NCBI GenBank assembly: GCA_020723405.1
Contig: DYIY01000008.1
Span: forward strand, 62,001-126,000
Direction of reading: 5' to 3'
DNA: 64,000 nt
Origin: Thiobacillus denitrificans
GTDB taxonomy: Bacteria > Pseudomonadota > Gammaproteobacteria > Burkholderiales > Thiobacillaceae
A program made the position numbers and the translations under genes. Each line of letters begins with the position of its first letter. The first letter of the stretch is position 1. The notes under the pieces are model-generated. The model worked only from the letters and a program-made list of their open reading frames with translations, searched no databases and was not told the DNA's origin. Of the stretch, positions 7,546 through 40,466 are shown piece after piece.

Positions 7546-7604
7546 GTTACCGGGCGGTAATAGGCCAAGGTCAAGGGGCGGGAAAATTATTACCGGATGG
7601 TAAC
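7546..7604. promoter_or_regulatory. Pair of AioR1-type palindromic sites beside aioX1
   Basis: Two 16-bp palindromes, GTTACCGGGCGGTAAT (7546-7561) and ATTACCGGATGGTAAC (7589-7604), are centred 43 bp apart. The spacing is identical to the pair in front of aioB. Both fit TTACC-N4-GGTAA. They match the style of enhancer sites for NtrC-family regulators, but here they overlap the aioX1 start region, which would suit autoregulation or a relic enhancer left when the defence island inserted. Nothing else recognisable was found in 7605-7791. Confidence 0.7.
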
Positions 7605-7791
7605 AATCACTCCCTTGGTCTCCCTTGCCATCCCCACGCCCCCACGATGTGGCCTTACCGGGCACGTGCCCAAACCATTGGCCCCCAGGCCCGACTGATG
7701 GACAATCCGCAACCAAACCAGCGCCGCCATCGGTTGGCGGGATTTTCAGGCTCACCGACGACACGAACAGTTCAAACAGGGGAAAGCCGGC

Positions 7792-10572
7792 ATGACACCG
7801 GAAGCCGTGGCCCGGGAAAGCATCGACCAGAAACTGGCCCTGGCCGGCTGGGCCATTCAGGATATGAAAAAACTCAACCTCGGCGCCGCAATGGGCGTCG
7901 CGGTTCGGGAATACCCCACCGACACCGGACCCGCCGATTACCTGCTGTTCGTGAACCGTGAACCCGTCGGCGTCATTGAAGCCAAGCCCGACAACACCAT
8001 CCTCACTTTCGTCGAATCCCAGACGGAGCGTTACGCCCACAGCAACCTGAAATGGCGGATCAAGACCGCTCCCCTGCCCTTCCTGTTTGAGAGCACAGGC
8101 CAGGTCACCCGCTTCACCGATGGCCGTGACCCGGCTCCCCGATCCCGGGAAGTCTTCCACTTCTACAAACCCGAAACCCTGGCCCAATGGCTGGCCCAAC
8201 CGGAAAGCCTGCGCCACCGTCTGACGGCGCATCTGCCCACCCTGCCCACCCGAAACCTGCGCGAGTGTCAGGTAAGTGCCGTCACCGGCCTGGAACAATC
8301 CCTGGCCCTCAACAAACCCCGGGCCCTGGTGCAGATGGCCACCGGTGCCGGCAAGACCTTCACCGCCATCACCGCCGTCTACCGTCTACTGAAATTCGGG
8401 GGGGCAAAGCGCGTCCTCTTCCTGGTGGATACCCGCAATCTGGGCAAGCAGGCCCACCAGGAGTTCATGGCTTACACCCCGCCGGACGACGGCCGCAAAT
8501 TCACCGAGCTCTACAACGTTCAGCGGCTTGCCTCACCCAGCATCGACCCCCATGCCCAGGTGTGCATTTCCACCATCCAGCGCATGTATTCCATCCTCTC
8601 CGGCGAGCCCATCGACGACGCCGCCGAAGATGTCTCCCTCAACGAAGTGCGCCAGATCGAACAGCAGGCCAAGTGGGTTCGCTACAACCCCGCCATCCCG
8701 GTGGAGACCTTTGATTTCATCGTCATCGACGAGTGCCACCGCTCCATCTACAACCTGTGGAAGCAGGTGCTGGACTACTTCGACGCCTTCCTCGTCGGCC
8801 TCACCGCCACCCCGGACCAGCGCACCTTCGGCTTCTTCGACGAAAACGTCGTCGCCGAATACAGCTACGAGCAATCCGTGGCCGACGGTGTCAACGTGGG
8901 CTACGACGTGTACGAGATCGAAACCGAGATCACCAAGAAGGGCGCCCAACTCCAGGCCCGGGAATGGGTGGACCACCGGGACCGCCTCACCCGCAAGAAG
9001 CGTTGGAGTCAGGTGGACGAGGACACCCCATACACCGGCAAGGAGCTGGACCGCTCCGTGGTCAACCCCAGCCAGATCCGCAAGGTCATCCAGGCCATGA
9101 AGACGGCGGTGGAAACTGACATCTTCCCCAGCCGCAAGGAAGTCCCCAAGACCCTCATCTTTGCCAAGACCGACAGCCACGCCGACGACATCATCCAGAT
9201 CGTCCGGGACGTCTACGGCCAGGGCAACGCCTTCTGCAGAAAGGTCACCTACAGCGCCGACAACCCCGACGGCACCTTGAGCGACTTCCGCAACGAGCAC
9301 TACCCGCGCATCGCCGTCACCGTGGACATGATCGCCACCGGCACCGACGTCAAACCCCTGGAAATCCTGCTCTTCATGCGCGACGTGCGCAGCCGCAACT
9401 ACTACGAGCAGATGAAAGGCCGGGGCGTGCGCAGCCTGGGTTTCGACGACCTGCGCCGGGTCAGCAACTCCGCCGACAGCGCCAAGACCCGCTTCGTCCT
9501 CATCGACGCCGTGGGCGTGGAAAAGTCCCTGAAAACCGAATCCCGCCCCCTGGAACGCAAGCCCGGCCTGGCCCTGAAAGACCTGCTGCAAGGCATCGCC
9601 ATCGGCCACCGGGACGACGACACCGTCACCAGCCTGGCCAACCGCCTGGTGCGCCTCACCAAGCAACTGGATGACAAAGCCCTGGCCCGCATCGAACAGG
9701 CCGGCGGAATCCCCCTGAGCCAACTGGGCAAGGGGCTGCTCACCGCCCTGGACCCGGACCGCATCGTCGCCACAGCTTTGGCCACGGCCAGGGAACAAGG
9801 CATCAGCCGTTCCGAAGACACCCTCACCGACGAGGAACTGGCGGCGGCCAAGGACAGAAACCTTGCCGCCGCCTGCGCCCCCTTCGATCAACCCGAACTG
9901 CGCGACGCCATTGAAGCCGCCCGCCGGGAACGGGAACAGCTCATCGACACCGTCAACCTGGACCAGGTCACCTTCGCCGGCTACAGCGCCCAGGCCGAGG
10001 ACCAGGCCCGCAAGACCATCCAGACCTTCACCGACTACCTGGCCGCCCACAAGGACGACATCGCCGCCCTGGCCTTCTTCTACCAGCAGCCCTACCAGCG
10101 CCGCCAGCTCACCTTCGACATGATCGCAGACCTGCACGACCGCCTCAGCCGCCCGCCCCTCATGCTCACCAGCGAACGCCTGTGGAGCGCCTACGCCCGC
10201 ATCCAGCAAAACCGGGAGGCAAACAAAGTCAGGGGCACCGACATCAAGCGCCAGCTCACCGACCTCATCGCCCTGGTGCGTTTCGCCCTGGGCCTGGACA
10301 GCGAACTCAGGCCCTTCGCCGAGCAGGTCAACCTGCGCTTCCAGGAATGGATCTTCCGCCACAACGCCCAGCGCGGCACCGCCTTCACCCCCAAGCAGAC
10401 CGACTGGCTGCGCCTGATCAAGGACCACATCGCCAGCAGTTGCAGCATCAGCCGGGAGGATTTCGACTACGCCGAGTTTGCCAACCAGGGCGGGCTGCAA
10501 AAGGCCTGGGGGGTGTTCGGGGAGGAGCTGGATGGGTTGATGGCGGAGATGAATGAGGAGTTGGTAGCGTGA
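7792..10572 (+). CDS. hsdR: Type I restriction enzyme, R subunit
   Basis: A 926-residue motor/nuclease subunit. The N-terminal nuclease motif is GVIEAKPDN near residue 60 (PD-(D/E)XK type). It is followed by a superfamily 2 helicase core with Walker A QMATGAGKT (about residue 182), DECHR box II (about 310), VGLTATP, and later MIATGTDVKPLE and MKGRGVRSLG. The C-terminal part is helical, for assembly with the M and S subunits. It starts at ATG 7792 behind an AGGGG-type ribosome site and overlaps hsdS by 4 bp (GTGA). The M subunit is not adjacent but lies 6 kb downstream, beyond three other defence-type genes. Confidence 0.95.
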   Translation: MTPEAVARESIDQKLALAGWAIQDMKKLNLGAAMGVAVREYPTDTGPADYLLFVNREPVGVIEAKPDNTILTFVESQTERYAHSNLKWRIKTAPLPFLFESTGQVTRFTDGRDPAPRSREVFHFYKPETLAQWLAQPESLRHRLTAHLPTLPTRNLRECQVSAVTGLEQSLALNKPRALVQMATGAGKTFTAITAVYRLLKFGGAKRVLFLVDTRNLGKQAHQEFMAYTPPDDGRKFTELYNVQRLASPSIDPHAQVCISTIQRMYSILSGEPIDDAAEDVSLNEVRQIEQQAKWVRYNPAIPVETFDFIVIDECHRSIYNLWKQVLDYFDAFLVGLTATPDQRTFGFFDENVVAEYSYEQSVADGVNVGYDVYEIETEITKKGAQLQAREWVDHRDRLTRKKRWSQVDEDTPYTGKELDRSVVNPSQIRKVIQAMKTAVETDIFPSRKEVPKTLIFAKTDSHADDIIQIVRDVYGQGNAFCRKVTYSADNPDGTLSDFRNEHYPRIAVTVDMIATGTDVKPLEILLFMRDVRSRNYYEQMKGRGVRSLGFDDLRRVSNSADSAKTRFVLIDAVGVEKSLKTESRPLERKPGLALKDLLQGIAIGHRDDDTVTSLANRLVRLTKQLDDKALARIEQAGGIPLSQLGKGLLTALDPDRIVATALATAREQGISRSEDTLTDEELAAAKDRNLAAACAPFDQPELRDAIEAARREREQLIDTVNLDQVTFAGYSAQAEDQARKTIQTFTDYLAAHKDDIAALAFFYQQPYQRRQLTFDMIADLHDRLSRPPLMLTSERLWSAYARIQQNREANKVRGTDIKRQLTDLIALVRFALGLDSELRPFAEQVNLRFQEWIFRHNAQRGTAFTPKQTDWLRLIKDHIASSCSISREDFDYAEFANQGGLQKAWGVFGEELDGLMAEMNEELVA

Positions 10573-12380
10573 ACGGAAAAGGGCATTACCCATCAAGCTG
10601 GATTGAGGTTGATCTCGGAGAACTATTTACGCTTCCAGGCGATGACATCGTTGATGGACCTTTTGGCTCAAACCTAAAGGCATCCGAGTACGTTGAAAAA
10701 GGCGTCCCAATCGCACGTCTACAGAACATTGATCGCAATAGGTTCGTTTTTAAGAACATCAAATATGTCACTGAAGATAAAGCGAACGCACTGGACCGCC
10801 ACACATTTTGTCCTGGCGACCTATTAATCACGAAACTAGGTGACCCACTTGGCAAAGTTTGTCTTGCACCTCTTTCGATACACCGCGGAGTACTAGTTGC
10901 TGACGTTGTGCGTGCCCGAGTAACCCATGCCTGGGTCAACTCGCCCTTCCTTTGCTACCAGCTCAATTCTGAAAACGTAGTTGAGCAATTCACAGAACAA
11001 ACCAAAGGCACAACACGTCCTCGCGTTAGCCTCACAAAAATTCGTTCTCTCAAAGTCTGGTTGTGCCCTCTTGGTGAACAAACCCGCATCGTCGAAAAAC
11101 TCGAAGAACTCCTATCCGACCTAAATGCTGGCGTGGCCGAACTCAAGGCCGCGCAAAAGAAACTGGCCCAGTACCGGCAAGCCCTGCTGAAAGCGGCGGT
11201 GGAAGGCGCCCTCACCGCCGAATGGCGCGCCGCGTGCACCGGCGAACAGGAAACTGGCGCCCAACTCCTCGCCCGTATCCTCAGCGAACGCCGCCGCCGC
11301 TGGGAAGAAAAGCAACTCGCCAAATTCCAGCAACAAGGCAAGACCCCGCCTCAGGGCTGGCAGGACAAATACCCTGAACCGATCCAGCCCGAAACCACTG
11401 ACCTGCCGGCTTTGCCGGAGGGATGGGTGTGGGCGAGCCTGGATATGTTGGGCGAAATCGTTTCCGGGGTGGCGAAGGGCACGAAACGGGACCCTGAAAT
11501 CGCCGTTCGTGAGGTGCCTTATCTGCGAGTCGCCAACGTCCAGCGCGGTTATCTAGACTTGAAGGAGGTCAAAACCATCCTCGCCACCGAGCGGGATATC
11601 GAAGAACTCGCCCTCAGGAATGGCGACGTTCTCTTCAACGAGGGGGGCGACCGGGACAAGCTGGGACGCGGCTGGGTATGGCGTGACGAGGTGGCCAATT
11701 GCATACACCAGAATCACGTCTTCAGAATGCGCCCCTACCTGCCCGAAATCGTTCCCGAACTGGTCTCTCACCATGGCAATACCTTCGGCAAGACCTGGTT
11801 CCAGACGGCGGGCAAGCAAACCACGAACCTCGCCTCCATTAACATGGCGATCCTGCGAGGCTTCCCGGTGCCGCTTGCTCCTACGGCGGAACAGGAAGTG
11901 ATTCTGTCCACCCTCGTCGCACAGTTGGAGACGCTGGATGGCCAAGTGAAAGCGACGGAGCTGGGTTTGAAACAAACCGAAGCCCAACGCAAAAACCTGC
12001 TCAAAGCAGCTTTCTCCGGCCAACTTGTTCCCCAAGACCCCAACGACGAACCCGCCAGCAGGCTATTGGAACGCATCCGCGCAGAGCGGGCGGCGCGGGC
12101 CAAGCAACCCAAGGAACAAAAAACCCAGTCTCGCCATCGGGAGGTGAAATCCATCATGAAGAAACTGAAAGATGTACTGGCCGAGGCGGGCGACTGGTTG
12201 CCCGCCCAAGAAGCCTTCCGCCGATGCGGTGTGGCCGATGGCGTGGATACGGATCGGATCGAAATGCTCTATGCCGAGTTGCGGGAACTGGACAAGGCCG
12301 GGGTGCTGGTGGCAGAACCGGTGCGGGATGCCGATGGCCGAAAACTGCATGACCGTTTGAAGCTGAGCACGAGGGACTGA
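10569..12380 (+). CDS. hsdS: Type I restriction specificity subunit
   Basis: A 603-residue specificity subunit starting at GTG 10569. It has two target-recognition domains (about residues 1-165 and 280-455), each followed by a conserved helical spacer (EQTRIVEKLEELLSDLNAG near 173 and EQEVILSTLVAQLETLDGQ near 442). The C-terminus carries an extra segment of about 75 residues after residue 530 that resembles a small winged-helix domain, unusual for HsdS. The first recognition domain (about 10575-11115) is visibly more AT-rich than the rest of the gene, as expected of a domain exchanged by recombination. Confidence 0.93.
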   Translation: MNGKGHYPSSWIEVDLGELFTLPGDDIVDGPFGSNLKASEYVEKGVPIARLQNIDRNRFVFKNIKYVTEDKANALDRHTFCPGDLLITKLGDPLGKVCLAPLSIHRGVLVADVVRARVTHAWVNSPFLCYQLNSENVVEQFTEQTKGTTRPRVSLTKIRSLKVWLCPLGEQTRIVEKLEELLSDLNAGVAELKAAQKKLAQYRQALLKAAVEGALTAEWRAACTGEQETGAQLLARILSERRRRWEEKQLAKFQQQGKTPPQGWQDKYPEPIQPETTDLPALPEGWVWASLDMLGEIVSGVAKGTKRDPEIAVREVPYLRVANVQRGYLDLKEVKTILATERDIEELALRNGDVLFNEGGDRDKLGRGWVWRDEVANCIHQNHVFRMRPYLPEIVPELVSHHGNTFGKTWFQTAGKQTTNLASINMAILRGFPVPLAPTAEQEVILSTLVAQLETLDGQVKATELGLKQTEAQRKNLLKAAFSGQLVPQDPNDEPASRLLERIRAERAARAKQPKEQKTQSRHREVKSIMKKLKDVLAEAGDWLPAQEAFRRCGVADGVDTDRIEMLYAELRELDKAGVLVAEPVRDADGRKLHDRLKLSTRD

Positions 12381-12382
12381 GC

Positions 12383-14098
12383 ATGCGCCTCGACAAGCTC
12401 ACCCTAGGCAGCCCCAAGGACAGCCCGACCCACCAATTCAAGAACCTGAAGGACGTCTGTATAGACTTCGACCAGGACCATTGGGTGACGGTGGTGATTG
12501 GCTGGAACGGCACGGGCAAGTCCAACGTTCTGGAGGCGCTGGCCATCATCTTCCGGGACCTGATCGGCAAGAAGAAGGCACCGGAATTCGCCTATCGCCT
12601 GGCTTACCGCATGGGCACGGGTGATGACTCCCGCCATATCCATATCGACGCCGATCCGGACCGCACCAAGGTGCCTTACGTCATCCATGTGGCCAGCACG
12701 GCCGAGGTCCGGCAAGCGGCCGAGGAACAGGCACGCTTGGTGTTCGAGGTCCCGAATCCGTCCCCGCCCGGGAGCCAGATCAAGTTCTCCAGTTTCGTCT
12801 CTGAGCAGGTGCGCTATCTGCCGCGCTATGTGTTCAGCTATTACTCGGGCGAGAGCACTCGCATGCATGAGGTTTTTCGCCCGTATCTCGAAATCTATGA
12901 CAACAAGTTGCGCAATGGCGATGACCCAGGGTTGAAGCGGTTGTTCTTCGCGCTACCCGTGCACAGTCAATTCGTGTTGCTGGCATTTCTGATACAGCAA
13001 ACCGATGTTGTGCAGAGCTTTCTGGATGAACACCTGGGGCTTGATCCGGAAGAGGGGCTCGAGTCCGTGCTCTTCGTGTTGCGACAACCCCCTTGGAATT
13101 CCAAGGCGCCGGATGGCGACCCGCGCTTTTGGAACGCACGCGGGGTGGTGAGAGGATTTCTTGCGCGCCTCTACGACATTGCCTTGGCGCCCATCAAGAT
13201 CAACCGTCGCGTCCCGGTTTCCCTTTGGAACGAGAAGTCCTTGGAATTTCAGTACCTGTTCGTGAAGGATATCGGCGCTTTACGGGCGCTGGTTGGGGCG
13301 CAATCACCCGCCGAGTTCTTCCGTGACTTGGAAAGCACCTATGTGTCCGAGTTGATCGAAGAGGTCCGCATCCGCGTCCGTCTCAAAAAGAACGATGGCA
13401 GCGTCACTTTCCGTGAACTGAGCGAAGGCGAGCAGCAGTTGCTGACCGTGCTAGGCCTGCTGCGGTTTACGTCGGAGGAGGAAAGCCTGTTCCTGCTGGA
13501 TGAGCCGGATACCCACCTGAACCCGCGTTGGTGTGTGGACTACCTGTCCTACTTGAAGCAATTCGTCGGTAGGGATGCGTCAAGTCAGGAAAGCAGCCAC
13601 ATTGTATTCACGACCCATAACCCGCTGGCCATCGCGGAGCTGGTGCGGGGGCAGGTGCAGATACTCAAACGAGGAGAGGGCGTTCGCCAGATCATGGCGC
13701 GCCAGCCGGACTTCGACCCCAGGGGCATGGGGTATGCAGGAATCGTCACCAGCGACATGTTTGGCTTGGCCGCCGCGTTGGATACCCATACTCAGGACTT
13801 GCTGGAGAGGAAACGGCTGATTTCCTTGAAGGACGGGCCATTGACCGACGCCGAGCGTGAAGACCTGGAGCGAATCAATCTGGTACTCGATGGCTATGGC
13901 TTCCGCTATTCGGCGCGAGACCCTTTGTTCGAGGAATATCTGCGTGCCCGCTACCAGTTCGACGAGGCGCGGCAAGAGGGCGAGAAACTATCCCAGCTTC
14001 CCAGTAAGGAACGCCGGGAGAAAGCGCGTGCGCTGATCCAACAGGTTGCCGCCAAGGTGAAATCAGAGCAGGAGGGTGTTGCCGATGCGTCGCATTGA
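12383..14098 (+). CDS. ptuA: AAA ATPase of a Septu-like defence system (PtuA-like)
   Basis: A 571-residue SMC/RecF-class ATPase with Walker A GWNGTGKS (about residue 49), an ABC-type signature LSEGEQQLL (about 346) and Walker B LFLLDEPDTHLNP (about 369), followed by the H-loop region FTTHNPLAIAEL. It starts 2 bp after hsdS and overlaps the following HNH gene by 14 bp. This ATPase-HNH pairing is the hallmark of Septu (PtuAB) anti-phage systems and of retron-associated effectors. No reverse transcriptase is present, so Septu is the better label. Function is inferred from the pair. Confidence 0.82.
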   Translation: MRLDKLTLGSPKDSPTHQFKNLKDVCIDFDQDHWVTVVIGWNGTGKSNVLEALAIIFRDLIGKKKAPEFAYRLAYRMGTGDDSRHIHIDADPDRTKVPYVIHVASTAEVRQAAEEQARLVFEVPNPSPPGSQIKFSSFVSEQVRYLPRYVFSYYSGESTRMHEVFRPYLEIYDNKLRNGDDPGLKRLFFALPVHSQFVLLAFLIQQTDVVQSFLDEHLGLDPEEGLESVLFVLRQPPWNSKAPDGDPRFWNARGVVRGFLARLYDIALAPIKINRRVPVSLWNEKSLEFQYLFVKDIGALRALVGAQSPAEFFRDLESTYVSELIEEVRIRVRLKKNDGSVTFRELSEGEQQLLTVLGLLRFTSEEESLFLLDEPDTHLNPRWCVDYLSYLKQFVGRDASSQESSHIVFTTHNPLAIAELVRGQVQILKRGEGVRQIMARQPDFDPRGMGYAGIVTSDMFGLAAALDTHTQDLLERKRLISLKDGPLTDAEREDLERINLVLDGYGFRYSARDPLFEEYLRARYQFDEARQEGEKLSQLPSKERREKARALIQQVAAKVKSEQEGVADASH

Positions 14099-14867
14099 TC
14101 AACACAAGATCGCGCCGGATGCCCAGTGGGAGGCCAAGGCCGATACGGAGAAGGAAAAGGTGTTGGCAGGAACGCCGATCGGAAAGTGCAAAGCGGTTTG
14201 GTCTGAGGCGAAGGATCGGCTCAAGAAGGTTTCGCACGGCAAGTGCTGGTACTGCGAAGCCCGCCAGGAGCGCGCAGACAATGCGGTGGACCATTACCGT
14301 CCCAAGAGCATTTATCCCTGGCTCGCCTATGAGCTGGCCAACTTCCGTTATGCCTGTACCTTCTGCAACAGCATCCGAACGAATCCTGAGACAGGCGAGT
14401 CAGCCGGCAAAGGTGACCACTTTCCGCTTTTCAACAACGGAGCCAGGGCAACGACAGCAGCGCTGTTGAATGCCGAAGATGTTGTGTTGCTTGATCCATG
14501 CAGAGGGTCAGATCCAGGTTTGCTGGATTTTCGTGAAGACGGAAAGCCTTGCGCCAAGTACCCGGACCAACAAAAGCGCTGTGATCGTGCTGAGCAGTCG
14601 ATTCACTACTACCACCTGGACCACCCTGACCTCGTGGAGTCGAGGCGCCAACTTGCCCTGGAGATCAAGGAATGGGTCGATGGAGCCGATGCAATCTATA
14701 GAGCTGATGACCAGGGTGAACCGAACCAAGAGCGTGCTTTTTCACGTTTCGTGGAAAGCATATGCAGGGCGCTTGGAGAGGGTGCCGAGTTCTCGGTCTT
14801 TGCCAGGCGGATAGTCGACGGCTACAGGGATAGGCCATGGATTGAAGATTTGTTGCAATGCGTATAA
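14085..14867 (+). CDS. ptuB: HNH endonuclease of the Septu-like system (PtuB-like)
   Basis: A 260-residue nuclease of the TIGR02646-like HNH group. Zinc/HNH elements are visible as CWYCE (about residue 50), the catalytic DHYRPKS, and a second CxxC in ACTFCNSIR. The start was set at ATG 14085 because a GGAGGG ribosome site ends 8 bp before it; an in-frame GTG at 14076 would lie inside that site. It overlaps ptuA, so the two are co-translated. In characterised Septu systems the ATPase and nuclease form one complex that cleaves DNA on phage infection. The gene is less GC-rich than the aio genes, consistent with transfer. Confidence 0.82.
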   Translation: MRRIDQHKIAPDAQWEAKADTEKEKVLAGTPIGKCKAVWSEAKDRLKKVSHGKCWYCEARQERADNAVDHYRPKSIYPWLAYELANFRYACTFCNSIRTNPETGESAGKGDHFPLFNNGARATTAALLNAEDVVLLDPCRGSDPGLLDFREDGKPCAKYPDQQKRCDRAEQSIHYYHLDHPDLVESRRQLALEIKEWVDGADAIYRADDQGEPNQERAFSRFVESICRALGEGAEFSVFARRIVDGYRDRPWIEDLLQCV

Positions 14868-14883
14868 CAGGGAAACAACGCAA

Positions 14884-16845
14884 GTGACTGAAACTCACAC
14901 ACTGGACGACCTCGCCCTCCTGGCGGAGTCCGTTGAACTTGAGTGCAAATCCGCACAGGGCCGTCACGGGCAAGGGGAACTCCCCGCCGATTTCTGGCCC
15001 ACCTACAGTGCCATGGCCAACAGCGATGGCGGGGTGGTCCTGCTGGGCATCCAGGAAAAGCCGCGCGGCACCTTCCAGGTGGCGGGTCTGGCCCGGTTCG
15101 AGCAGGTGCGCAAGGCCTTGTGGGACAACCTACACAACCCGAAGCAGGTGAGTGCGAACCTGCTCACGGAACAACACATCCAGCCGGTGACGGTGGCGGG
15201 CAAGACGGTGTTACGGGTGGAAGTGCCCCGCGCCAGCCGCCGCCAGCGGCCGGTACACGTGGGTGCCAATCCCTTTGGTGGTACCTATCTGCGCCGTTAC
15301 GAGGGGGACTACCAGGCCGACGACGAAACCGTGCGGCGCATGCTGGCGGAGCGGGTGGAGGATTCTCGCGATGAGCGCGTGCTGAAGGGCTTTGATTTCG
15401 CCGACCTGGATATGGATTCCCTGGCGGCCTACCGCAACCGTTTTTCGGCCGTGAAACCGGGGCACGTCTGGCTGGACTTGCCCTTGCCGGAGTTCGCGGA
15501 GCGTATCGGCGCCTATGGTCGCAACCGGGAGGAAAGCTATTCCGGTTTGCGTCTGGCGGGGTTGTTGATGTTTGGTCGTGCGGAGGTGATCCGCGATGCC
15601 CTGCCCCACTACATGGTGGATTATCAGGAACGCCCGGAACCCAAGGCGGAAAAACGCTGGATTGACCGGCTGGTGCCGGATGGCACCTGGTCTGGCAACC
15701 TATATGACTTCTTCCGGCGGGTGTATCAGAAGCTGACGGCCGATCTGAAGGTGCCTTTCCAGTTGCAGGCCGGGCAGCGCATCGAGGACACGCCGGTGCA
15801 TGAGGCCCTGCGGGAGGCGTTGGTGAATACGCTGATCCACGCTGATTTTTCCGGCCGGGTGTCGGTGTTGGTGGTGAAGCGGCCGGACATGTTCGGTTTC
15901 CGCAACCCGGGCTTGATGCGGGTGCCGCCTGCCTTGGCGGTGCAGGGCGGCAACAGCGACTGCCGCAACCGCCGCTTGCAAACCATGTTCCAGTTGGTGG
16001 GTTACGGTGACCACGCCGGTTCCGGGATACCGAAAATTTACCGCAACTGGGAAGGCCAGCATTGGCGGCGCCCCTTGCTCTATGAATTGCCGGACCCGGA
16101 ACAGACCCTTATGGAATTGCGCATGACCAGCCTTGTGCCGGCGGAAACCCTGGCGGAGCTGGAGGCCCATCTCGGTTCCAAGTTTTCATCCTTGCCAGAA
16201 TTGGAACGCCTGGCCTTGGTTACGGCGGCCACGGAAGGTGTCGTAAACCACGCCCGTTTAAGGGAAATTTCGACCGAGCACCCAGCGGACATCACCAAAA
16301 TGCTGGCCCATCTGGTGAAGGAGGGTTTGCTGATTTCGGATGGCGTGGGGCGCGGCATGGTGTATTTCCTGCCCTGGCAGTCTTCCAGCAATGTGGTCAG
16401 CTTTACGGGTGAGTATGGGCGTGACGCGGCTGAGGCGTTATCACAGGAGCCCGATGCGTTAACACAGGAGCTCGGGCCGTTAACACAGGAGTTCGGCCCG
16501 TTAACACAGGAGCTGGGTGCGCCTTTATGGGTAGAGGTGACGGATGTTCCACCCGAGCAGATGCTCCAGTTGGAACGCCTTGCTTATCCGGCGAGCAGTC
16601 GAAAACGTGCCAGCCCGGGTTTGATGCGGGAGGTCGTGCTGAGGCTTTGCGAGAGGCATTACCTAGGCGTGCGTGTGCTGGCCCACCTGCTGCGCCGGGA
16701 TTCGAACGACTTGGTTCGCAGGACGTTGACCCCGTTAGTCGCAGAGCGAGCACTACGCAGAGCATTTCCCCGACCCAACGACCCGCGCCAGGCCTATACG
16801 GTTACACCAAGAGAAAATGCCACGCGTGGCAGCGCAACGGAATGA
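14884..16845 (+). CDS. AlbA_2/Schlafen-type ATP-binding protein with GHKL-like domain
   Basis: A protein of about 653 residues. The N-terminal AlbA_2 (divergent AAA_4) domain is marked by LECKSAQGRHGQGE and ANSDGGVVLLGIQE. The central part holds the HATPase_c_4-like segment VHEALREALVNTLIHADF and RNPGLM...GSGIPKIYR. The C-terminus looks like winged-helix DNA-binding modules. A heptad-like repeat of the form PLTQELG lies near residues 518-545 and is encoded by 21-bp tandem repeats. GTG 14884 was chosen as start; an upstream in-frame TTG would overlap ptuB. Such proteins are common accessory genes in type I restriction operons. The specific role is unknown. Confidence 0.78.
   Translation: MTETHTLDDLALLAESVELECKSAQGRHGQGELPADFWPTYSAMANSDGGVVLLGIQEKPRGTFQVAGLARFEQVRKALWDNLHNPKQVSANLLTEQHIQPVTVAGKTVLRVEVPRASRRQRPVHVGANPFGGTYLRRYEGDYQADDETVRRMLAERVEDSRDERVLKGFDFADLDMDSLAAYRNRFSAVKPGHVWLDLPLPEFAERIGAYGRNREESYSGLRLAGLLMFGRAEVIRDALPHYMVDYQERPEPKAEKRWIDRLVPDGTWSGNLYDFFRRVYQKLTADLKVPFQLQAGQRIEDTPVHEALREALVNTLIHADFSGRVSVLVVKRPDMFGFRNPGLMRVPPALAVQGGNSDCRNRRLQTMFQLVGYGDHAGSGIPKIYRNWEGQHWRRPLLYELPDPEQTLMELRMTSLVPAETLAELEAHLGSKFSSLPELERLALVTAATEGVVNHARLREISTEHPADITKMLAHLVKEGLLISDGVGRGMVYFLPWQSSSNVVSFTGEYGRDAAEALSQEPDALTQELGPLTQEFGPLTQELGAPLWVEVTDVPPEQMLQLERLAYPASSRKRASPGLMREVVLRLCERHYLGVRVLAHLLRRDSNDLVRRTLTPLVAERALRRAFPRPNDPRQAYTVTPRENATRGSATE
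16435..16518 (+). repeat. Four tandem 21-bp repeats inside the AlbA_2 gene
   Basis: Units at 16435, 16456, 16477 and 16498 share the core gTTAACACAGGAG with a few differences (unit 1 has TTATCACAGGAG). Because 21 is a multiple of three, copy-number change would add or remove seven residues (consensus PLTQELG) without breaking the frame. It encodes a flexible or coiled linker between the ATP-binding part and the C-terminal domain. Confidence 0.9.
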
Positions 16846-16874
16846 GGCTTTTCCCAGAGGGCCGGCGACGCGTT

Positions 16875-16958
16875 TTTATTATCCAGTCGGCGAGATAATA
16901 AACCTTGGTATCAAACAATGTCATTTAAAAACATCGAATTACGCGTTTGTTTATTATC
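16875..16958. promoter_or_regulatory. AT-rich operator-like region before hsdM
   Basis: TTTATTATC (16875-16883) and its exact complement GATAATAAA (16894-16902) form an inverted repeat with a 10-bp spacer; a third copy TTTATTATC is at 16950-16958. The stretch 16846-16997 is the only long gap in the island and is clearly AT-rich. It is a plausible separate promoter/operator for hsdM, perhaps ensuring that methylase expression precedes nuclease expression. The cognate protein is unknown. Confidence 0.5.
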
Positions 16959-18476: not shown

Positions 18477-18520
18477 ATACGCTCGCCCCTCCCTCTGGTC
18501 CTTTGCTACCAGCCGGTAAC
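18462..18520. promoter_or_regulatory. Pair of AioR1-type enhancer sites upstream of aioBA
   Basis: Palindromes ATTACCAAACGGTAAA (18462-18477) and GCTACCAGCCGGTAAC (18505-18520) are centred 43 bp apart. Their centres lie about 119 and 76 bp before the predicted transcription start of the sigma-54 promoter at 18562-18577, a normal position for NtrC-family enhancers. The subclass (C-N4-G core) equals that of the sites next to aioX1, suggesting the regulator is AioR copy 1. Confidence 0.78.
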
Positions 18521-18561: not shown

Positions 18562-18577
18562 TGGCACGCTTCTCGCA
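18562..18577 (+). promoter_or_regulatory. Sigma-54 promoter of aioBA
   Basis: TGGCACGCTTCTCGCA has the -24 GG and -12 GC separated by exactly 10 bp and a full TGGCACG -24 element. It lies 50 bp upstream of the aioB ATG and downstream of two enhancer-like palindromes. This agrees with the known sigma-54/AioR dependence of arsenite oxidase operons. Confidence 0.88.
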
Positions 18578-18626: not shown

Positions 18627-19148
18627 ATGACTCAGACCACCGTGTCCCGCCGGGACTTTTTCAAGATGGGTGGCGGCCTGGCCGCCGGAGCCGGGGTGGC
18701 CGTGACCGGCCTGGCGCCGGCCAGCGCCGAGGCCGCGCCCAACACCGCCGTGACCCTGCCCTACAAGCCCAAGACCGTGGCCCGGGTGAAGACCATGAAG
18801 GTGAACCAGCCGGTGCCCTTCAACTATCCCGACGCGGCCAGCCCCTGTTCGGCGGTGAAGATGGGCGCCCCGGTGCCCGGCGGCGTGGGTCCCGACGGGG
18901 ACATCGTGGCCTTCAGCGTACTGTGCACCCACCAGGGCTGCCCCACGGTCTATGACACCACCGACCGCTGCTTCAAGTGCCCCTGCCATTACTCCATCTT
19001 CGACGCGGAAAAGGGCGGCCAGATGGTGTGCGGCCAGGCCCCCAGCAAGCTGCCCCAGATCGTCCTGGAATACGACGCCAAGACCGACATGATCGCCGCC
19101 GTGGCCGTCAACGGCCTCATCTATGGCCGCCAGGCCAACGTGCTGTAA
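18627..19148 (+). CDS. aioB: Arsenite oxidase small subunit (Rieske protein)
   Basis: A 173-residue Tat-exported Rieske [2Fe-2S] protein. The leader has SRRDFF followed by a hydrophobic stretch to about residue 36. Cluster ligands are visible as C100-T-H102 and C118-P-C-H121; C105 and C120 can form the stabilising disulfide found in many Rieske proteins. It accepts electrons from the molybdenum subunit and passes them to a periplasmic cytochrome c. GAGGAG precedes the ATG. It is 11 bp upstream of aioA and downstream of a sigma-54 promoter. Confidence 0.96.
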
Positions 19149-19159: not shown

Positions 19160-21634
19160 ATGGCCAACGATCGCATCGTCCTGCCCCCGGTCAACGCGCA
19201 AAAGACCAACATGACCTGCCACTTCTGCATCGTCGGATGCGGCTACCACGTGTACAAGTGGCCGGAAGCCCAGGAAGGCGGCAAGGCGCCCCACCAGAAC
19301 GCCCTGGGCCTGGATTTCCGCAAGCAGTTGCCGCCCTTCTCCACCATCGTCTCCACCACCCAGCAGAACGTGGTCACCGACCATGACGGCAGCCGGCACA
19401 ACATCCTCATCGTGCCCGACAAGGAATGCGTGGTGAACCAGGGCGGCGGCTCCGTGCGCGGCCTGCACATGGCCAGCTACATGCACGCCGACGGTTCCAT
19501 GACCGGAGAGCGCATGAAGCATCCGCGCCTGCATACCGGCGACCAGTGGCTGGAGACCGACTGGGACCAGGCCCTGGCCCTCTATGCCGGGGTGACCAAG
19601 AAGGTGCTGGACGCCAAGGGCCCCCGGGAACTGTGCTTCGACTCCGCCGACCACGGCGGCGCCGGCGGCGGCTTCGAGAACACCTGGGGGGCGGGCAAGC
19701 TCATGTTCACCGCCCTGCAGACGCCCCTGGTGCGCATCCACAACCGGCCGTCCTACAACTCCGAGTGCCACGCCACCCGGGAGATGGGCATCATGGAGCT
19801 GAACAACTCCTACGAGGACGCCGAGGTGGCCGACTGCATCATGGCCATCGGCTGCAACCCCTACGAGACCCAGACCAACTACTTCCTGGTCCACTGGCTG
19901 CCCAACATCCAGGGCATCACCGTGGACAAGAAGAAGGAATGGTTCCCCGGCGAGGAAGTGGGCGACGGCAAGGTGATCTTCGTGGATCCGCGCAAGACCG
20001 CCTCCATCGCCATCGCCGAAGCCACGGCGCCGGACCGGGTCATCCACCTGGACCTGCTGCCCGGCACCGACGTGGCCCTGTTCAACGGCCTGTTCACCTA
20101 CGTCATCGAGCAGGGCTGGATCGACAGGGACTTCATCGCCAAACGCACCAAGGGTTTCGAGGAAGCCGCCAAGGCCAACTCCATGAGCCTGGACGAATGT
20201 TCCCAGGTCACCGGCATCCCGGTGGCCAAGCTCAGGCAGGCGGCGGAATGGGCCTACAAGCCCAAGGCCGGCGGCAAGCTCAAGCGCACCATGCACGGCT
20301 ACGAGAAGGGCATCATCTGGGGCAACGACAACTACGCCATCCAGTCATCCCTGCTCGACCTGGCCATCGCCACCCACAACGTGGGCGGCCGGCGCGGCAC
20401 CGGCTGCGTGCGCATGGGCGGCCACCAGGAAGGCTACGCCCGGCCCCCCCATCCCACCGGCGAGAAGCTCTACAACGACCAGGAGATCATCAATGGCAAG
20501 GCCATGATGTACACCGCCTGGGCGGTGAACCCCTTCCAGTCCACCCTCAACGCCGAAGCCTTCCGGGAAACCGTGCAGCGCCGTGCCGAGATCGTCAAGC
20601 AGGCCATGCGCGGGGCCCGGGGCGCCACCACGGCCGAGATGATCGACGTGATCTTCGACGCCATTTCCACCAAGGGCGGCCTGTTCGTCACCCACATCAA
20701 CCTCTATCCCACGGCCATGGCCGAGGTGGCCCACCTGATGATGCCGGCGGTGCATCCCGGGGAGATGAACCTGACTTCCATGAGCGGCGAGCGGCGCATG
20801 CGCCTGTCCGAACGCTTCATGGACCCGCCCGGTTCCGCCAAGCCGGACTGCCTCATCTCCGCCGACATCGCCAACGCCCTGAAGGCCCTGTACCTGAAGG
20901 AGGGCAACGCCAAGATGGCCGACCGCTTCAAGGGCTTCGAGTGGAAGACCGAGGAGGACGCCTTCAACGACGGCTTCCGCCTCATGGGCGCCAAGGACGT
21001 GGGCGGCGAGATCCACAGCCAGGGCGGCGACACCGGCCATCTGGCCACCTATGCCCTGCTCAAGGCCGCCGGCAACAACGGCGTGCAACTGCCCATCAAG
21101 GAAGTGAAGAACGGCAAGCTCATCGGCACCGAGATGCTCTACACCGACAAGTTCGGCACCGACGACGGCCTGGCCCACTTCAAGGCTTCCCCCTGGAAGG
21201 GCTTCTTCAAGGCCGTGGAAGGGCAGCGGGCCAAGTATCGCTTCTGGGTCAACAACGGCCGCATCAACGAGATCTGGCAGACCGGCTACCACGACCAGTA
21301 CAACCCCACCATGAAGGAACGCTGGCCCATGGCGCCCCTGGAGATCAACCCGGACGACGCCAAAGAACTGGGGGTCAGCAACGGCGACATCGTGGAGTTG
21401 TTCAACGACTACGGCGCCACCTACGCCATGGCCTACCTCACCCCGGAAGCCAAGCGCAACCAGGTGTTCATGCAGTTCGGCCACTTCAACGGCGTGGTGG
21501 GTGATGTGGTGACCGAGGCGGTGGACCGCAACGTGCTGCCCGACTACAAGCACACCTGGGCCAACCTCCGCAAGGTCACCCGCGGGGAATACAAGGCCAC
21601 GGTGAGCTTCAAGTCACGGCATTACAAGGCCTGA
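19160..21634 (+). CDS. aioA: Arsenite oxidase large molybdopterin subunit
   Basis: An 824-residue DMSO-reductase-family enzyme oxidising arsenite to arsenate in the periplasm. The [3Fe-4S] ligands C20, C23, C27 (CHFCIVGC) and S98 are one position offset from those of the Alcaligenes faecalis enzyme as I recall them. Active-site segments [11 protein letters not shown] and [10 protein letters not shown] carry the histidine, glutamate and arginine residues of the arsenite pocket. It has no signal peptide, as expected for co-export with AioB. ATG 19160 follows AAGGAGAG. Length and motifs are full, so it should be functional. Confidence 0.97.
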
Positions 21635-22882: not shown

Positions 22883-22898
22883 GTTACCCTGAAGTTAC
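22883..22898. promoter_or_regulatory. AioR2-type site overlapping the aioX2 leader
   Basis: GTTACCCTGAAGTTAC matches the left half and core of the class B sites at 26629-26686 but has a GTTAC right half in place of GTAAC. It ends 10 bp before the aioX2 ATG. Only one copy is seen. The position suits autoregulation rather than distant activation. Confidence 0.5.
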
Positions 22899-22908: not shown

Positions 22909-23820
22909 ATGAACGCCAAACCAGCGACCTTGACCCAGCCCCAGGACGTCTCCGTGTCGACCCCCGGCCGCCGTGATTTCCTGCGCGGCCTTTCCGCCGC
23001 CGCCCTGGGCCTGTTGCCCGCCCCCCTCCTGGCCCGCCCCGCCAAGCACACCATCCGCATCGGCTTCACCCCCGCCTTCGTCCACGACCAGCACGCCCTG
23101 CTGGCCGACTGGCGGGTGTACATGGAGAAACGCCTGGGCCTGAAGGTGGAGATCGTGCAGCGGGACAGTTACCGGGAAACCATGGACCTGCTGCGCCTGA
23201 AGCAGATGGATTTTGCCTGGGTCTGCGACTACCCCTTCCTGCACCTGAAGGATCTGGTGCGGCTCATGGCCGTGCCCCTCTACAAGGGCCAGCCCCTGTA
23301 CCGTTCCTACATCATCGTGCCCGTCGGCAATCAGAAAGCCACGGGCCTGAAGGACCTGAAGCAGACGGTGTTCGCCTACGCGGATCCCCTGTCCAACACC
23401 GGCTACCTCTATCCCCGCTTCGCCATCCACAAGATGGGCGACAAACCCCAGGACTACTTCCGCAAGACCTTCTTCACCTGGTCCCACAAGAAGGTGGTGG
23501 AAGCCGTGGCCATGGGCTTCGCCCAGGGGGGGGCGGTGGACAGCTACATCTGGGAGACCCTGGACCGCATCCATCCGGAACTCACCCAGCGCACCCGCAT
23601 CATCCAGCGCTCCCCGGAATACGGCTTCCCCCCCTTCGTGGGCCACCGGGAACTGGACCCGGAACTGTTCGGCCAGGTGCAGAACTTCCTGCTCACCATG
23701 CACCGGGACCCGGAAGGGGCCGCCCTGCTCAAGCGCATCAACCTGGACGGCTTCGTGCGCGGCGACATCCATCTCTACGACGGGGTGGCGGAGATGATGC
23801 GGGTGTTCGACGAACACTGA
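22909..23820 (+). CDS. aioX: Periplasmic sensor protein, AioX-like (copy 2)
   Basis: A 303-residue PhnD-family protein with a Tat-like leader (GRRDFLRG then a hydrophobic run). The motif DFAWVCDYPF places a lone cysteine at residue 106, the position I recall as the arsenite-binding cysteine of AioX. The rest aligns with copy 1 (YRSYIIVP, SHKKVVEAVAMGFAQGGAVDSYIWE, LDGFVRGDIHLYDG). ATG 22909 was chosen over an upstream TTG that would overlap the palindromic site. It is followed by its kinase after 22 bp. The ligand may be arsenite or a related oxyanion; the sequence alone cannot decide. Confidence 0.87.
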   Translation: MNAKPATLTQPQDVSVSTPGRRDFLRGLSAAALGLLPAPLLARPAKHTIRIGFTPAFVHDQHALLADWRVYMEKRLGLKVEIVQRDSYRETMDLLRLKQMDFAWVCDYPFLHLKDLVRLMAVPLYKGQPLYRSYIIVPVGNQKATGLKDLKQTVFAYADPLSNTGYLYPRFAIHKMGDKPQDYFRKTFFTWSHKKVVEAVAMGFAQGGAVDSYIWETLDRIHPELTQRTRIIQRSPEYGFPPFVGHRELDPELFGQVQNFLLTMHRDPEGAALLKRINLDGFVRGDIHLYDGVAEMMRVFDEH

Positions 23821-23842: not shown

Positions 23843-25294
23843 ATGCACCTGTTCAACCTCAGCTTCCGCTACAAGATCCCCCTCTGGGGCGGCATGCTGA
23901 TCCTGCTCTCGGTGCTGGCGGTGTCGGCGGCCCTGATGCTCAAGGCCTATGAAGACCTGAAGGAGGACCTGCGCATCAGCGCCGAGGGCCTGGGGGGCAT
24001 CCTCACCCAGACCCTGTTCGCCCCCCTGCTCCACGACGACGTGTGGCGGGCCTTCGAGCTGGTCAACGCCACCTTCCACGGCGGGCGGACCCAGAACCCC
24101 ATCCAGCCGGAAATGATCTTCGTGGTGAGCCCGGTGGGCCACGTCACCGTCTCCACGGCGCCGGCGGAACTGCCCATGCTGGCCGACCTGCACACCCTGG
24201 GCGGCGATTACGCGGAACTGGTGCGGCGCCTAGACGAACCCCTGGCCGGACGATTCCTGCGCTTCGAGCCCGACCTGGCCGGACGGGTGTTCTTCGCCTT
24301 CCCCATCCAGCAGGAAAGCGCCCGGGTGGGCACCCTGGTGCTGGCCTATTCCAAGGACGTGTTCCTGCCCCGCTTCCGGGGCCTGGCCCTGCACGGCATC
24401 CTGGTGGGCAGCCTGGTGCTGGCGGTGCTGCTGCCCCTCAACTGGTACTGGGGGCAACGCATGGCCCGGCCCCTGGTGGACCTGGCCCGGCGCATGGGCC
24501 AGGCGGTCCACGGCGGCCGCCAGGATCCGCCCCGGGAAACCTATGCCTACCGGGACGAACTGGGCCAGTTGTTCCAGGCCTACGACGACATGCTGGTGGA
24601 AATGCGCGAGAAGGCCCTGCTGGAGAAGGAACTGTTGCAGACCGAGCGGCTCACCGCCATCGGCCGCCTGGCCGCCGGCATCGCCCACGAGGTCAACAAC
24701 CCCCTGGGGGGCATGCTCATGTCCCTGGACACCCTGCGCGAGCGGGGCGGCCTGCCGGACCACGCGGGCAAGACCCTGGGCCTCCTGGAACGGGGCCTGA
24801 AGCAGATCCAGGAAACCGTGGCGGCCCTGCTGGTGCAGACCCGGGACCAGCGCCGCACCCTCACCGGCCAGGACCTGGAAGACGTGCGCACCCTGATCCA
24901 TCCCCAGGTGCTGAAGAAATCCCAGGTCCTGGACTGGCAGACGGAACTGCCCAACGGACTGGACCTGCCCGCCGCCGCCTGCCGGCAGATCCTCATCAAC
25001 CTGCTGCTCAACGCGGTCCAGGCCACCGCCGAAGGGGATCGCATCCAGGTCCTGCTGGAGCCCCACCTGGGAGGCCTGCGCCTGCGGGTGAGCAACCAGG
25101 CCCCGCCCATCCCGCCGGAATACATGGAACACCTGTTCGAGCCCTTCGTCAGCGGCCGGGAAGGGGGCCACGGCCTGGGCCTGTGGGTCACCTACCAGAT
25201 GGTCCGGCAACTGGGCGGGCGCATCGACGCCACCTGCAACGGCGGCGAAGTGCGCTTCGAAGTCTGGCTGCCCCGGGGAGAGGAGAAACCATGA
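23843..25294 (+). CDS. aioS: Sensor histidine kinase, AioS-like (copy 2)
   Basis: A 483-residue membrane kinase, collinear with copy 1. It has two transmembrane helices (about residues 10-32 and 180-202) flanking a periplasmic domain, HAMP, the HisKA phospho-site in GIAHEVNNPLGGML, and a HATPase with NLLLNAVQAT and GLGLWVTYQM. The stop overlaps the aioR2 start as ATGA. It likely relays the AioX2 signal to AioR2. Confidence 0.9.
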   Translation: MHLFNLSFRYKIPLWGGMLILLSVLAVSAALMLKAYEDLKEDLRISAEGLGGILTQTLFAPLLHDDVWRAFELVNATFHGGRTQNPIQPEMIFVVSPVGHVTVSTAPAELPMLADLHTLGGDYAELVRRLDEPLAGRFLRFEPDLAGRVFFAFPIQQESARVGTLVLAYSKDVFLPRFRGLALHGILVGSLVLAVLLPLNWYWGQRMARPLVDLARRMGQAVHGGRQDPPRETYAYRDELGQLFQAYDDMLVEMREKALLEKELLQTERLTAIGRLAAGIAHEVNNPLGGMLMSLDTLRERGGLPDHAGKTLGLLERGLKQIQETVAALLVQTRDQRRTLTGQDLEDVRTLIHPQVLKKSQVLDWQTELPNGLDLPAAACRQILINLLLNAVQATAEGDRIQVLLEPHLGGLRLRVSNQAPPIPPEYMEHLFEPFVSGREGGHGLGLWVTYQMVRQLGGRIDATCNGGEVRFEVWLPRGEEKP

Positions 25295-26643
25295 AAACCC
25301 GCATCTGCCTCATCGAGGACGATCCCATCATGGGCGAGGCCCTGGCCGAGCGCCTGGACCTGGAAGGCTATGCCTGCGACTGGTTCCAGAGCGGCGCCGC
25401 CGCCATCCAGGCCCTGGCCAGCCGGCGCTTCGCCGTGGCGGTGAGCGACATCCGCCTGCCGGACATGAGCGGCGAAGCCCTGTTCGAACGGCTGCGCAGC
25501 CAGGGCATGGCACTCCCCCCCTTCCTGTTCATCACCGCCCACGGCGCCATCGACCAGGCCGTGCGCCTGCTCAAGCTGGGGGCCGAGGACTACCTCACCA
25601 AGCCCCTGGACATCCCGGTGCTGCTGGCCAAGGTGAGGGAACTGGCAGCTCGGGCCCGGGGCCCCGTCGGGGAGCCCGGGGATCTGGGCCTGTCTGCCGC
25701 CATGCGCCGCATCGAAGCCGCCCTGCCCCGCCTGGCGCTCCATGCGGACACCGTGCTCATTACCGGTGAATCCGGGGTGGGCAAGGAATGGGTGGCCCGG
25801 GCCCTGCACCGCCAGTCCGACCCCGCCGGCAGGAAACCCTTCGTGGCGGTGAACTGCGGTGCCATCCCGGACAACCTGCTGGAATCGGAACTGTTCGGCC
25901 ATGTAAAGGGCGCCTTCACCGGCGCCATCCGCGACAAACCCGGGGTGTTCGAGCAGGCCGACGGGGGCACCCTGTTCCTCGACGAAATCGGCGACATGCC
26001 CCTGGCCATGCAGGTGAAGCTGCTGCGCGCCATCCAGGAACGCACGGTGGTGCGGGTGGGCGGCGAGAAACCCCTCAGCTTCGCCATCAAGCTGGTCTGC
26101 GCCACCCACCGGGATCTGAAGGACATGGTGCAGAAGGGGGAATTCCGCGACGACCTCTACTACCGGGTCCACGTCATGGCCCTGCACGTGCCGCCCCTGC
26201 GCGAGCGCAAGGAGGACATCCTCTGGCTGGCGGCCCGCTTCGCCAGCGAGCTGTGCCAGGCCAAGGGCCTGCCGCCGCGCAAGCTGGATCCCCTGGAAGA
26301 GCGCACCCTCACCGCCTACCCCTGGCCGGGCAACATCCGGGAACTGAAGCACAGCCTGGAGCGGGCCTGCATCCTGGGGCCCCAGGCCAGCCTCACCCCG
26401 GAACTGCTGTTCGGCGGACTGGCCCCTGAACTGGCCTGCGTTCCCGAGGACGCGACCCCGGAGCGCCTGGCCGACTACCTGGCCAAGTGCGAGCGGGCCT
26501 ACCTGGTGCAGATGCTGGAACAGAACGGCTGGCGCATCACCGAGACCGCCGGCCACCTGGGCATCACCCGCAAGGCCCTGTGGGACAAGATGCGCCGGCT
26601 GGAGATCAGCCGCCCCGGCGCGGAGGCCGTTACCCCGGAGTAA
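25291..26643 (+). CDS. aioR: Sigma-54-dependent response regulator, AioR-like (copy 2)
   Basis: A 450-residue NtrC-family activator: receiver with SDIRLPDMSGEAL, AAA+ domain with GESGVGKEW and GAFTGA, WPGNIRELKH, and a Fis-type helix-turn-helix (ITETAGHLGITRKALWDKM). It is paralogous to the regulator at 3634, and the DNA-binding helices differ (GITRKALWDKM here, GISRKNLWEKM there), consistent with slightly different sites. Its stop codon lies within the first of a new pair of palindromes that precede a sigma-54 promoter for the FNR-class gene. It likely activates that gene. Confidence 0.9.
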   Translation: MKTRICLIEDDPIMGEALAERLDLEGYACDWFQSGAAAIQALASRRFAVAVSDIRLPDMSGEALFERLRSQGMALPPFLFITAHGAIDQAVRLLKLGAEDYLTKPLDIPVLLAKVRELAARARGPVGEPGDLGLSAAMRRIEAALPRLALHADTVLITGESGVGKEWVARALHRQSDPAGRKPFVAVNCGAIPDNLLESELFGHVKGAFTGAIRDKPGVFEQADGGTLFLDEIGDMPLAMQVKLLRAIQERTVVRVGGEKPLSFAIKLVCATHRDLKDMVQKGEFRDDLYYRVHVMALHVPPLRERKEDILWLAARFASELCQAKGLPPRKLDPLEERTLTAYPWPGNIRELKHSLERACILGPQASLTPELLFGGLAPELACVPEDATPERLADYLAKCERAYLVQMLEQNGWRITETAGHLGITRKALWDKMRRLEISRPGAEAVTPE

Positions 26644-26686
26644 CCTCCCCGGGGCTGCACCAGCCCCGGCGTTACCCTGGCGTAAC
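26629..26686. promoter_or_regulatory. Pair of AioR2-type enhancer sites
   Basis: GTTACCCCGGAGTAAC (26629-26644) and GTTACCCTGGCGTAAC (26671-26686) are perfect GTTAC-N6-GTAAC palindromes centred 42 bp apart, about four helical turns. They lie roughly 140-200 bp before the sigma-54 promoter at 26822. Their core lacks the trailing G of the aioBA sites, which defines a second subclass shared with the site at aioX2. Confidence 0.78.
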
Positions 26687-40464: not shown

Positions 40465-40466
40465 GT

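Follow-up and report, generated by a model that had tools for sequence, protein, structure and literature searches.

A 64,000-nucleotide stretch of Thiobacillus denitrificans DNA (assembly GCA_020723405.1, contig DYIY01000008.1, positions 62,001 to 126,000; hereafter the window) carries two paralogous AioXSR-type gene sets beside a single aioBA arsenite oxidase operon. Each set encodes a sensor (X), a histidine kinase (S), and a sigma-54 activator (R). Seven palindromes of 16 base pairs (bp) adjoin these genes and fall into two classes. We propose, with a probability of roughly 0.7 and on sequence comparison, that the palindromes are upstream activator sites of the two AioR-type activators, R1 and R2, that each regulator acts on its own class, and that the sites changed together with the recognition helix. 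The palindromes look like AioR enhancers, since sigma-54-like promoters lie downstream of two of the pairs and the geometry recurs in relatives.

A sequence-only reading of the window had placed seven palindromes here, six of them paired at 42 to 43 bp, and all seven were found where it put them. Directly upstream of X1 are the predicted class 1 (N-type) AioR sites GTTACCGGGCGGTAAT (7546-7561, core CGGGCG) and ATTACCGGATGGTAAC (7589-7604, core CGGATG), each with one mismatch to the form GTTAC-N6-GTAAC. A second class 1 pair precedes aioB: ATTACCAAACGGTAAA (18462-18477, core CAAACG), with two mismatches in the outer arms, and GCTACCAGCCGGTAAC (18505-18520, core CAGCCG), with one. The predicted class 2 (A-type) sites comprise a single palindrome upstream of X2, GTTACCCTGAAGTTAC (22883-22898, core CCTGAA; one mismatch), and a pair, GTTACCCCGGAGTAAC (26629-26644, core CCCGGA) and GTTACCCTGGCGTAAC (26671-26686, core CCTGGC). 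The form that had been ascribed to all seven is exact only in this last pair, which stands by a gene for a CRP-type regulator; four other sites depart from it at one base and 18462 at two. Measured from start to start, the three pairs are spaced by 43, 43, and 42 bp. The stop codons of hsdM and R2 sit inside the palindromes at 18462-18477 and 26629-26644, respectively (TAA of GTAA).

Chance was rejected as the origin of these sites by shuffling of the window, by the count of the paired form in the genome, and by a family-wide control. Matches with at most one mismatch number six in the window, compared with a mean of 0.17 and a maximum of 1 in 100 shuffles. In the whole genome (4.15 Mb), both exact copies of GTTAC-N6-GTAAC lie inside the window, as do both occurrences of a strict paired form (TTAC-N6-GTAA-N26..31-TTAC-N6-GTAA; control, 0), a pattern that does not take in the pair 18462/18505. 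When one mismatch was allowed, 23 places were found genome-wide, 6 in the window and 17 outside it, against 35 for a reversed control pattern. Because the control exceeds the number outside the window, the single imperfect sites elsewhere are regarded as background. The motif had been thought to occur only near aio-type genes, with equal frequency across the genome as the observation that would speak against it. That restriction is borne out genome-wide for exact and paired sites and fails for single imperfect sites, which occur elsewhere at background level.

In the family, the strict paired form was present in 17 of 117 genomes, and its reversed control was present in none of the 117. Of 24 genomes encoding an R2-like activator (expectation value [E], ≤1e-120), 16 had the pair, versus 1 of the 93 others (Fisher, 6e-13). 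A search of relatives' aio loci for pairs at 42 to 43 bp, as the earlier reading had advised, returned a pair at exactly 43 bp in seven of the eight loci with sequence upstream of aioB (L009-L016, window included). Over 56 loci plus the window, spacings cluster at 31 to 34 and 40 to 44 bp, near whole helical turns; these 57 stretches overlap in places, and the overlaps were kept in the count. Non-redundant sets show an additional cluster at 51 to 53 bp, also near whole turns. The non-redundant spacing counts are partly conditioned, since a second mismatch was allowed in site calling mainly at the chosen spacings of 31 to 34 and 40 to 44 bp, a rule outside which the 51-to-53-bp cluster falls.

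R1 and R2 are 54% identical, and their recognition helices read RKNLWEK and RKALWDK, respectively. The R1 form is the common one among XSR sets, whereas RKALWDK (N to A, E to D) was found in six loci, window included. R2 orthologues with 76 to 84% identity are encoded in G021, G011, G019, and G003, and a further A-type relative (L179, a Ferrovaceae metagenome-assembled genome) has an R that is 75% identical. Below, x denotes the recognition-helix residue in RKxLW, bp 6 the base adjoining GTTAC, and bp 7 the base one further in, so that C at bp 7 corresponds to the half-site GTTAC[C/T]C.

The two classes differ most clearly at bp 7. In the window alone, C is found there in 5 of 6 set 2 half-sites versus 0 of 8 (p = 0.003). 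Among five genomes with both types, C occupies bp 7 in 18 of the 26 half-sites next to A-type sets, compared with 1 of the 38 next to N-type sets or aioBA (p = 7e-9); the contrast is 18/26 versus 1/34 (p = 3e-8) without the sites of G011:C48, which carries X1-S1 genes (83% and 79%). This contrast leaves out the two sites that lie between aioBA and X2 in G003, as they adjoin both; in the family half-site counts, these sites were assigned to the A group. G011 (L156, which has no X) is part of the same-genome contrast and lies outside the family sets described below, which required X and R on the stretch. Individual class 2 sites also recur: the 16-mer at 22883 is found again at the CRP promoter in G003 (L069:13241, reverse complement), the site at 26671 is identical to one in G011 (L156:4699), and GTTACCCTGAAGTAAC, with the same core as 22883, lies ahead of X2 in G021 and also in L176, where X2 is an 81% match and the contig stops short of any regulator.

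The classes had originally been told apart by their cores, C-N4-G at set 1 and aioBA and never ending in G at set 2. This split is complete in the window (4 of 4 versus 0 of 3 sites) and looser elsewhere: in five genomes with such loci, C-N4-G cores make up 3 of 13 A-adjacent sites versus 17 of 19 N-type or aioBA sites. The rule was therefore dropped as a discriminator in favor of C at bp 7. The broader proposal, that two AioR paralogues have diverged in DNA recognition, gains from the bp 7 contrast and from the covariation described next, although bp 7 discriminates better than the feature on which it was first based.

XSR sets were collected from relatives and the order (101 and 399 genomes), the family (117), the class (369), and a scan of named contigs (best 80 of 407 relatives). 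The resulting 155 sets gave 139 that were non-redundant at 97% R identity. No site was called in 17 of these (15 N, 1 T, and 1 S), and one set without a readable helix was excluded from class tests, leaving 121. Site choice rested solely on the outer five bases of each arm. With helix residue N, bp 6 is C in 371 of 477 half-sites (78%), whereas with T it is C in 11 of 62 and G or A in 77% (36 and 12, respectively; p = 2e-20). A-type half-sites have C at bp 6 in 17 of 30 cases (57%) and T in 33%, and S-type half-sites have C in 16 of 18. At bp 7, C occupies 17 of 30 A-type half-sites (57%) versus 56 of 477 N-type half-sites, in which G (43%) and A (33%) prevail. At the level of whole sets, C at bp 6 falls below half in 5 of 99 N sets versus 12 of 13 T sets. 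The genome G021 has three XSR sets, with N, T, and A helices, and three site classes.

Over the 121 sets, the link between residue x and bp 6 was the strongest of 160 combinations (20 variable columns by 8 bases) in an association scan that ignores kinship (z = 22; next, 12.7). When the regulators were placed on a tree that leaves out their DNA-binding domain, T was seen to change 8 times and A once. Six independent N/T pairs on supported branches changed in the same way in 5.8 cases on average and in the opposite way in 0.0 (median p, 0.031). The N/T link survives clustering at 85% and 75% and restriction to exact sites. Base composition was rejected as the cause, as N, T, and A loci are equal in GC content. 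A profile made from the DNA-binding domain reaches 4FTH, which is NtrC4 (PMC11407668), at an E of 7e-4 and Fis at 0.02 to 0.5.

A prediction that T gives a base other than C at bp 6 was fixed before the phylum was scanned. The scan returned 18 stretches, of which six loci outside the class have X, R, and aioBA, and all six have T as residue x (RTTLW in five and RTTFW in one). At seven sites of five of these held-out loci, bp 6 is G 11 times, A twice, and C once, in agreement with the prediction and with the published AioR footprint. This count excludes L270, where all sites were weak, together with a second, weak match at L274 and the weak matches close to X. Among the other stretches, L269 holds X and part of S with no R or aio gene on the stretch, and L275 to L285 have no R1- or R2-like gene. 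No GTTAC sites with at most one mismatch were found in the held-out loci; sites of the GTTCGG type precede aioB in five of the six.

Two of the three pairs in the window stand upstream of a sigma-54-like promoter. The -24/-12-like element of aioBA, TGGCACGCTTCTCGCA (18562-18577, plus strand), lies 57 bp from the start of site 18505 and 41 bp past the end of the pair. The sole full-score match in the window, TGGCATGACGGTTGCA (26822-26837, plus strand), lies 151 bp from the start of site 26671, ahead of the CRP-type gene. An ATG at 26826 falls within the -24 box of this element, which makes 26868 the most likely start of the CRP-type gene. In all five A-type loci with a CRP gene, window included, a sigma-54-like element lies 146 to 152 bp from the start of the second site. 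More generally, such an element was found within 180 bp of 47 of 78 pairs versus 116 of 1,560 random places.

These data can be arranged into the following model. X1 would sense arsenite and S1 would phosphorylate R1, which would bind the class 1 pair, with its half-site TTACC[G/A], upstream of the aioBA sigma-54 promoter. X2, S2, and R2 would act on the class 2 pair (GTTAC[C/T]C) ahead of the sigma-54 promoter of an operon encoding a CRP/FNR regulator, a cytochrome c, a flavocytochrome, and a molybdoenzyme, and the single site at X2 would serve autoregulation of set 2. Paired sites on one face of the helix, four turns apart, would let activator dimers bind side by side. R2 has altered two residues of the common helix (N to A and E to D), and its sites would have shifted with them at bp 7 and partly at bp 6. 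The sites, their spacing, the promoter-like sequences, the differences between the helices, and the covariation among relatives are observed; we infer that each regulator binds its own class and does so selectively in the cell, and likewise infer the ligands and whether regulation is positive or negative. Separate branches run by the two regulators are likely.

Several observations weigh against this model. Both classes share the outer GTTAC arms, and 2 of 13 A-adjacent sites lack a TTAC[C/T]C half. No good sigma-54 element was found near the sites of X1 or X2: near X2 none scores 4 or more, and by X1 none does so on the plus strand, with three weak candidates on the minus strand. The link between A and bp 7 is less secure than that between N/T and bp 6, since the A change has a single origin, in six loci that are related to each other; clustering at 75% reduces it to one data point (p = 0.044; 0.051 with exact sites). 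Among the 99 N sets, 10 have C at bp 7 in at least half of their half-sites, as do 5 of the 13 T sets; A429 is therefore not the only cause of this base, and N sets with LWER have it in 41% of half-sites. The N/T link has exceptions as well, namely the T-type L098, with mostly C at bp 6 (0.75), and the five N sets mentioned above; at a looser threshold (C6 ≤ 0.5), 4.6 of 6 pairs agree, with a median p of 0.0625. Other helix columns are associated with bases at z values of up to 12.7, and part of this must be shared descent, because the scan ignored the tree. The held-out check is supportive and not clean, since bp 4 and 5 and the preceding helix residue (RT versus RK) differ too. Finally, the region of G003 between aioBA and its A-type X2S2R2 genes carries the cores CTCCCG (C-N4-G) and TAATCG (T-N4-G). 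Site class therefore does not always simply follow the neighboring regulator. G003 is the exception and looks cross-wired, which speaks against strict insulation everywhere.

The shared arms and the G003 sites are also what would be expected if R2 were merely relaxed, its sites having drifted at bp 6 and 7 while both regulators bind both classes in one overlapping regulon. The mixture of C and T at bp 6 of A-type sites fits this explanation too, yet bp 7 has moved toward C rather than flattened, the near-identical cores CCTGAA and CCTGGC return in several A-type loci, and in G022 a near copy of the set 2 operon (CRP, 73%; molybdoenzyme, 87%) is paired with an N-type regulator and has sites of the N type (C at bp 7, 0.17). 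Relaxation of R2 thus appears unlikely to us. We would also give a minority place to stacked control, in which R1 governs aioBA plus set 2, or R2 and the CRP-type regulator lie below R1 in a cascade. In G003, X2S2R2 starts beside the non-class-2 sites and an R1-type set is located elsewhere (L103), and there R1 could switch on set 2. In the window, however, X2 has a class 2 site of its own, about 4 kb of DNA separates that site from the aioBA promoter, and G019 has an A-type set even though its best AioA match (E, 5e-9) is below arsenite oxidase grade.

The similar cores might instead be inherited from a single ancestral site in a clade of recent origin, through copying between the promoters of X2 and CRP, and owe nothing functional to the helix. 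The single origin of the A type and the likeness of the X2 and CRP cores agree with this. Such descent is improbable as the full account, because the sites of L179, an A-type locus with a different divergent gene, are also rich in C at bp 7 (0.75), and because N/T ties the same residue to the adjacent base over six independent comparisons. Known sites of the CRP/FNR family have a 5-N6-5 layout, which the frame GTTAC-N6-GTAAC presumably resembles, and the set 2 pair lies upstream of a crp-type gene, so the adjacent CRP/FNR-type protein rather than R2 might bind the set 2 sites. This we consider very improbable. The same paired frame occurs at XSR and aioBA loci without a gene like the CRP-type gene of the window (BLAST, E ≤ 1e-12), it tracks the presence of an AioR-type gene, and it agrees with the footprinted AioR frame; a single site also stands at X2.

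Both loci are ordered X-S-R, such that each activator is encoded with an AioX-type sensor and an AioS-type kinase. In set 1, on the minus strand, X1 (6678-7538) is an AioX-type periplasmic arsenite sensor with a Phosphonate-bd Pfam domain, whose best PDB match is AioX 6ESV (E, 2.6e-67). S1 (5215-6651) has HAMP, HisKA, and HATPase domains and is 41% identical to S2. R1 (3634-5010) has the domains Response_reg, Sigma54_activat, and HTH_8 and the recognition helix GISRKNLWEKMKKL (N441 and E444). In set 2, on the plus strand, X2 (22909-23820) is 46% identical to X1 and also matches 6ESV best (E, 7.6e-56); it is followed by S2 (23843-25294) and R2 (25291-26643), the latter with the recognition helix GITRKALWDKMRRL (A429 and D432). 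Both R1 and R2 exceed the cutoffs for PF00072, PF00158, and PF02954 (receiver, sigma-54 AAA+, and Fis-type helix-turn-helix domains). The AioX pocket comprises Tyr88, Cys106, Tyr131, Ser161, Ser163, His192, and Asp210 (PMC5908839). By eye in an alignment to 6ESV, X1 keeps all seven residues and X2 keeps six, with Ser163 replaced by Thr. ArrX retains these residues yet binds arsenate (PMC5908839), so they do not fix the ligand of X1 or X2.

The identity of aioBA is clear, as aioB (18627-19148, plus strand; TIGR02694, 188.7 bits; cutoff, 95.65) and aioA (19160-21634, plus strand; TIGR02693, 1,227 bits; cutoff, 359) both exceed curated cutoffs. The sites upstream of aioB have the GTT-N10-AAC frame with mismatched arms, and a sigma-54-like element follows them. 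In G050 and G023, X1 and aioB are divergent neighbors with one common pair, and in G017 and G021 they are kilobases apart with a pair at each. In the window, a type I restriction-modification island (7792-18476, plus strand; about 10.7 kb) separates X1 from aioB and encodes HsdR, HsdS, an AAA ATPase, a protein without a Pfam match, a Schlafen/AlbA_2 protein, and HsdM. The X1 pair reaches to within 7 bp of the X1 start, which is proposed at 7538. Its retention after separation from aioB suggests a role at X1 itself, probably as a site of predicted autoregulation. At L118 (G021:C170), two tandem X1-like frames, the first shorter, each have their own pair, which with the aioB pair makes three. 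A further sensor-kinase pair, X3/S3 (1470-3742, minus strand), comes after R1 in the window, and X3 lacks the AioX pocket cysteine by alignment. S3 is followed by a DUF4143 ATPase gene in the window and by another activator gene (36% identical to R1) in G017.

The set 2 operon occupies 26868-33060 on the plus strand. It begins with the CRP/FNR-family regulator (26868-27596, from the proposed start; cNMP_binding and HTH_Crp_2 domains) and continues with a structural block (27758-33060) encoding a cytochrome c (27758-28333), a flavocytochrome-c-type flavoprotein (28349-29665), a molybdopterin oxidoreductase (about 29761-32361), and a 4Fe-4S subunit (32374-33060). The molybdoenzyme was rejected as ArrA (222 bits; NCBIfam cutoff, 1,600) and as PhsA (280 bits; cutoff, 694). 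Parts of this operon adjoin AioXSR-like sets in G003, G011, G022, G469, and other genomes. Further along, 37688-44330 (minus strand) encodes multiheme cytochromes, two NHL-repeat proteins, and a large protein without a Pfam match, perhaps an outer membrane electron conduit.

If the proposed link between helix and site is correct, a single helix residue would be enough to predict the binding sites of AioR, ArxR, and kindred activators. Where a genome has several XSR sets, each could then be given its regulon, and just a few mutations would put to direct test a duplication in which activator and enhancer were both rewired. Attention is also drawn to an operon linked to AioXSR and composed of a CRP-type regulator, a cytochrome c, a flavocytochrome, and a molybdoenzyme. 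We give about even odds to a wider idea, that AioR-type activators follow a short recognition code, in which residue x reads the base beside GTTAC (N reads C, T reads G or A, and A with D moves the preference to C one base further in), and that this code allows several circuits for arsenic oxyanions to exist side by side in a single cell, G021 with its three sets being an example. Set 2 would then be an insulated branch running an undescribed molybdoenzyme/flavocytochrome pathway for arsenite or a related anion.

The comparison across genomes supports placing the divergence of the two classes within a wider residue-base correlation, of which we found no earlier report in open-licence PMC text; the same text yielded none of AioR recognition classes or of paralogous AioR sites. 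The same type of inference, from protein positions and bases over a family, appears to have been made for MerR (Prot-DNA-Korr; PMC5045206) and for IclR (PMC8222616), families other than that of AioR. ArxXSR/arx clusters are similar in having an XSR set divergent from a molybdoenzyme operon, and several loci with pairs, sigma-54-like elements, and a distant divergent molybdenum enzyme may be arx. Against this likeness, the ArrA model (222 bits; cutoff, 1,600) does not take in the set 2 enzyme. Control of arxAB by arxXSR is described in PMC6549141 as not yet demonstrated.

The closest known systems are the AioXSR/aioBA loci of Agrobacterium tumefaciens GW4/5A, Rhizobium NT-26, and Herminiimonas, which share the three-component set, the sigma-54 activator, the 16-bp GTT-N10-AAC frame, and an RpoN promoter before aioB (PMC5335332, PMC6011840, and PMC7533571). 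For AioR of A. tumefaciens GW4, the consensus is GTT-N10-AAC and a DNase I footprint covers the 16-bp palindrome GTTCGGATTTCCGAAC (PMC5335332). Unlike these systems, the window has two paralogous sets beside one aioBA, and its sites are paired in helical phase with the half-site GTTACC or GTTAC[C/T]C instead of GTTCGG. Its activators likewise carry the helices RKNLW and RKALW, whereas RTTLW, or RTTFW in one case, is found in the six loci outside the class.

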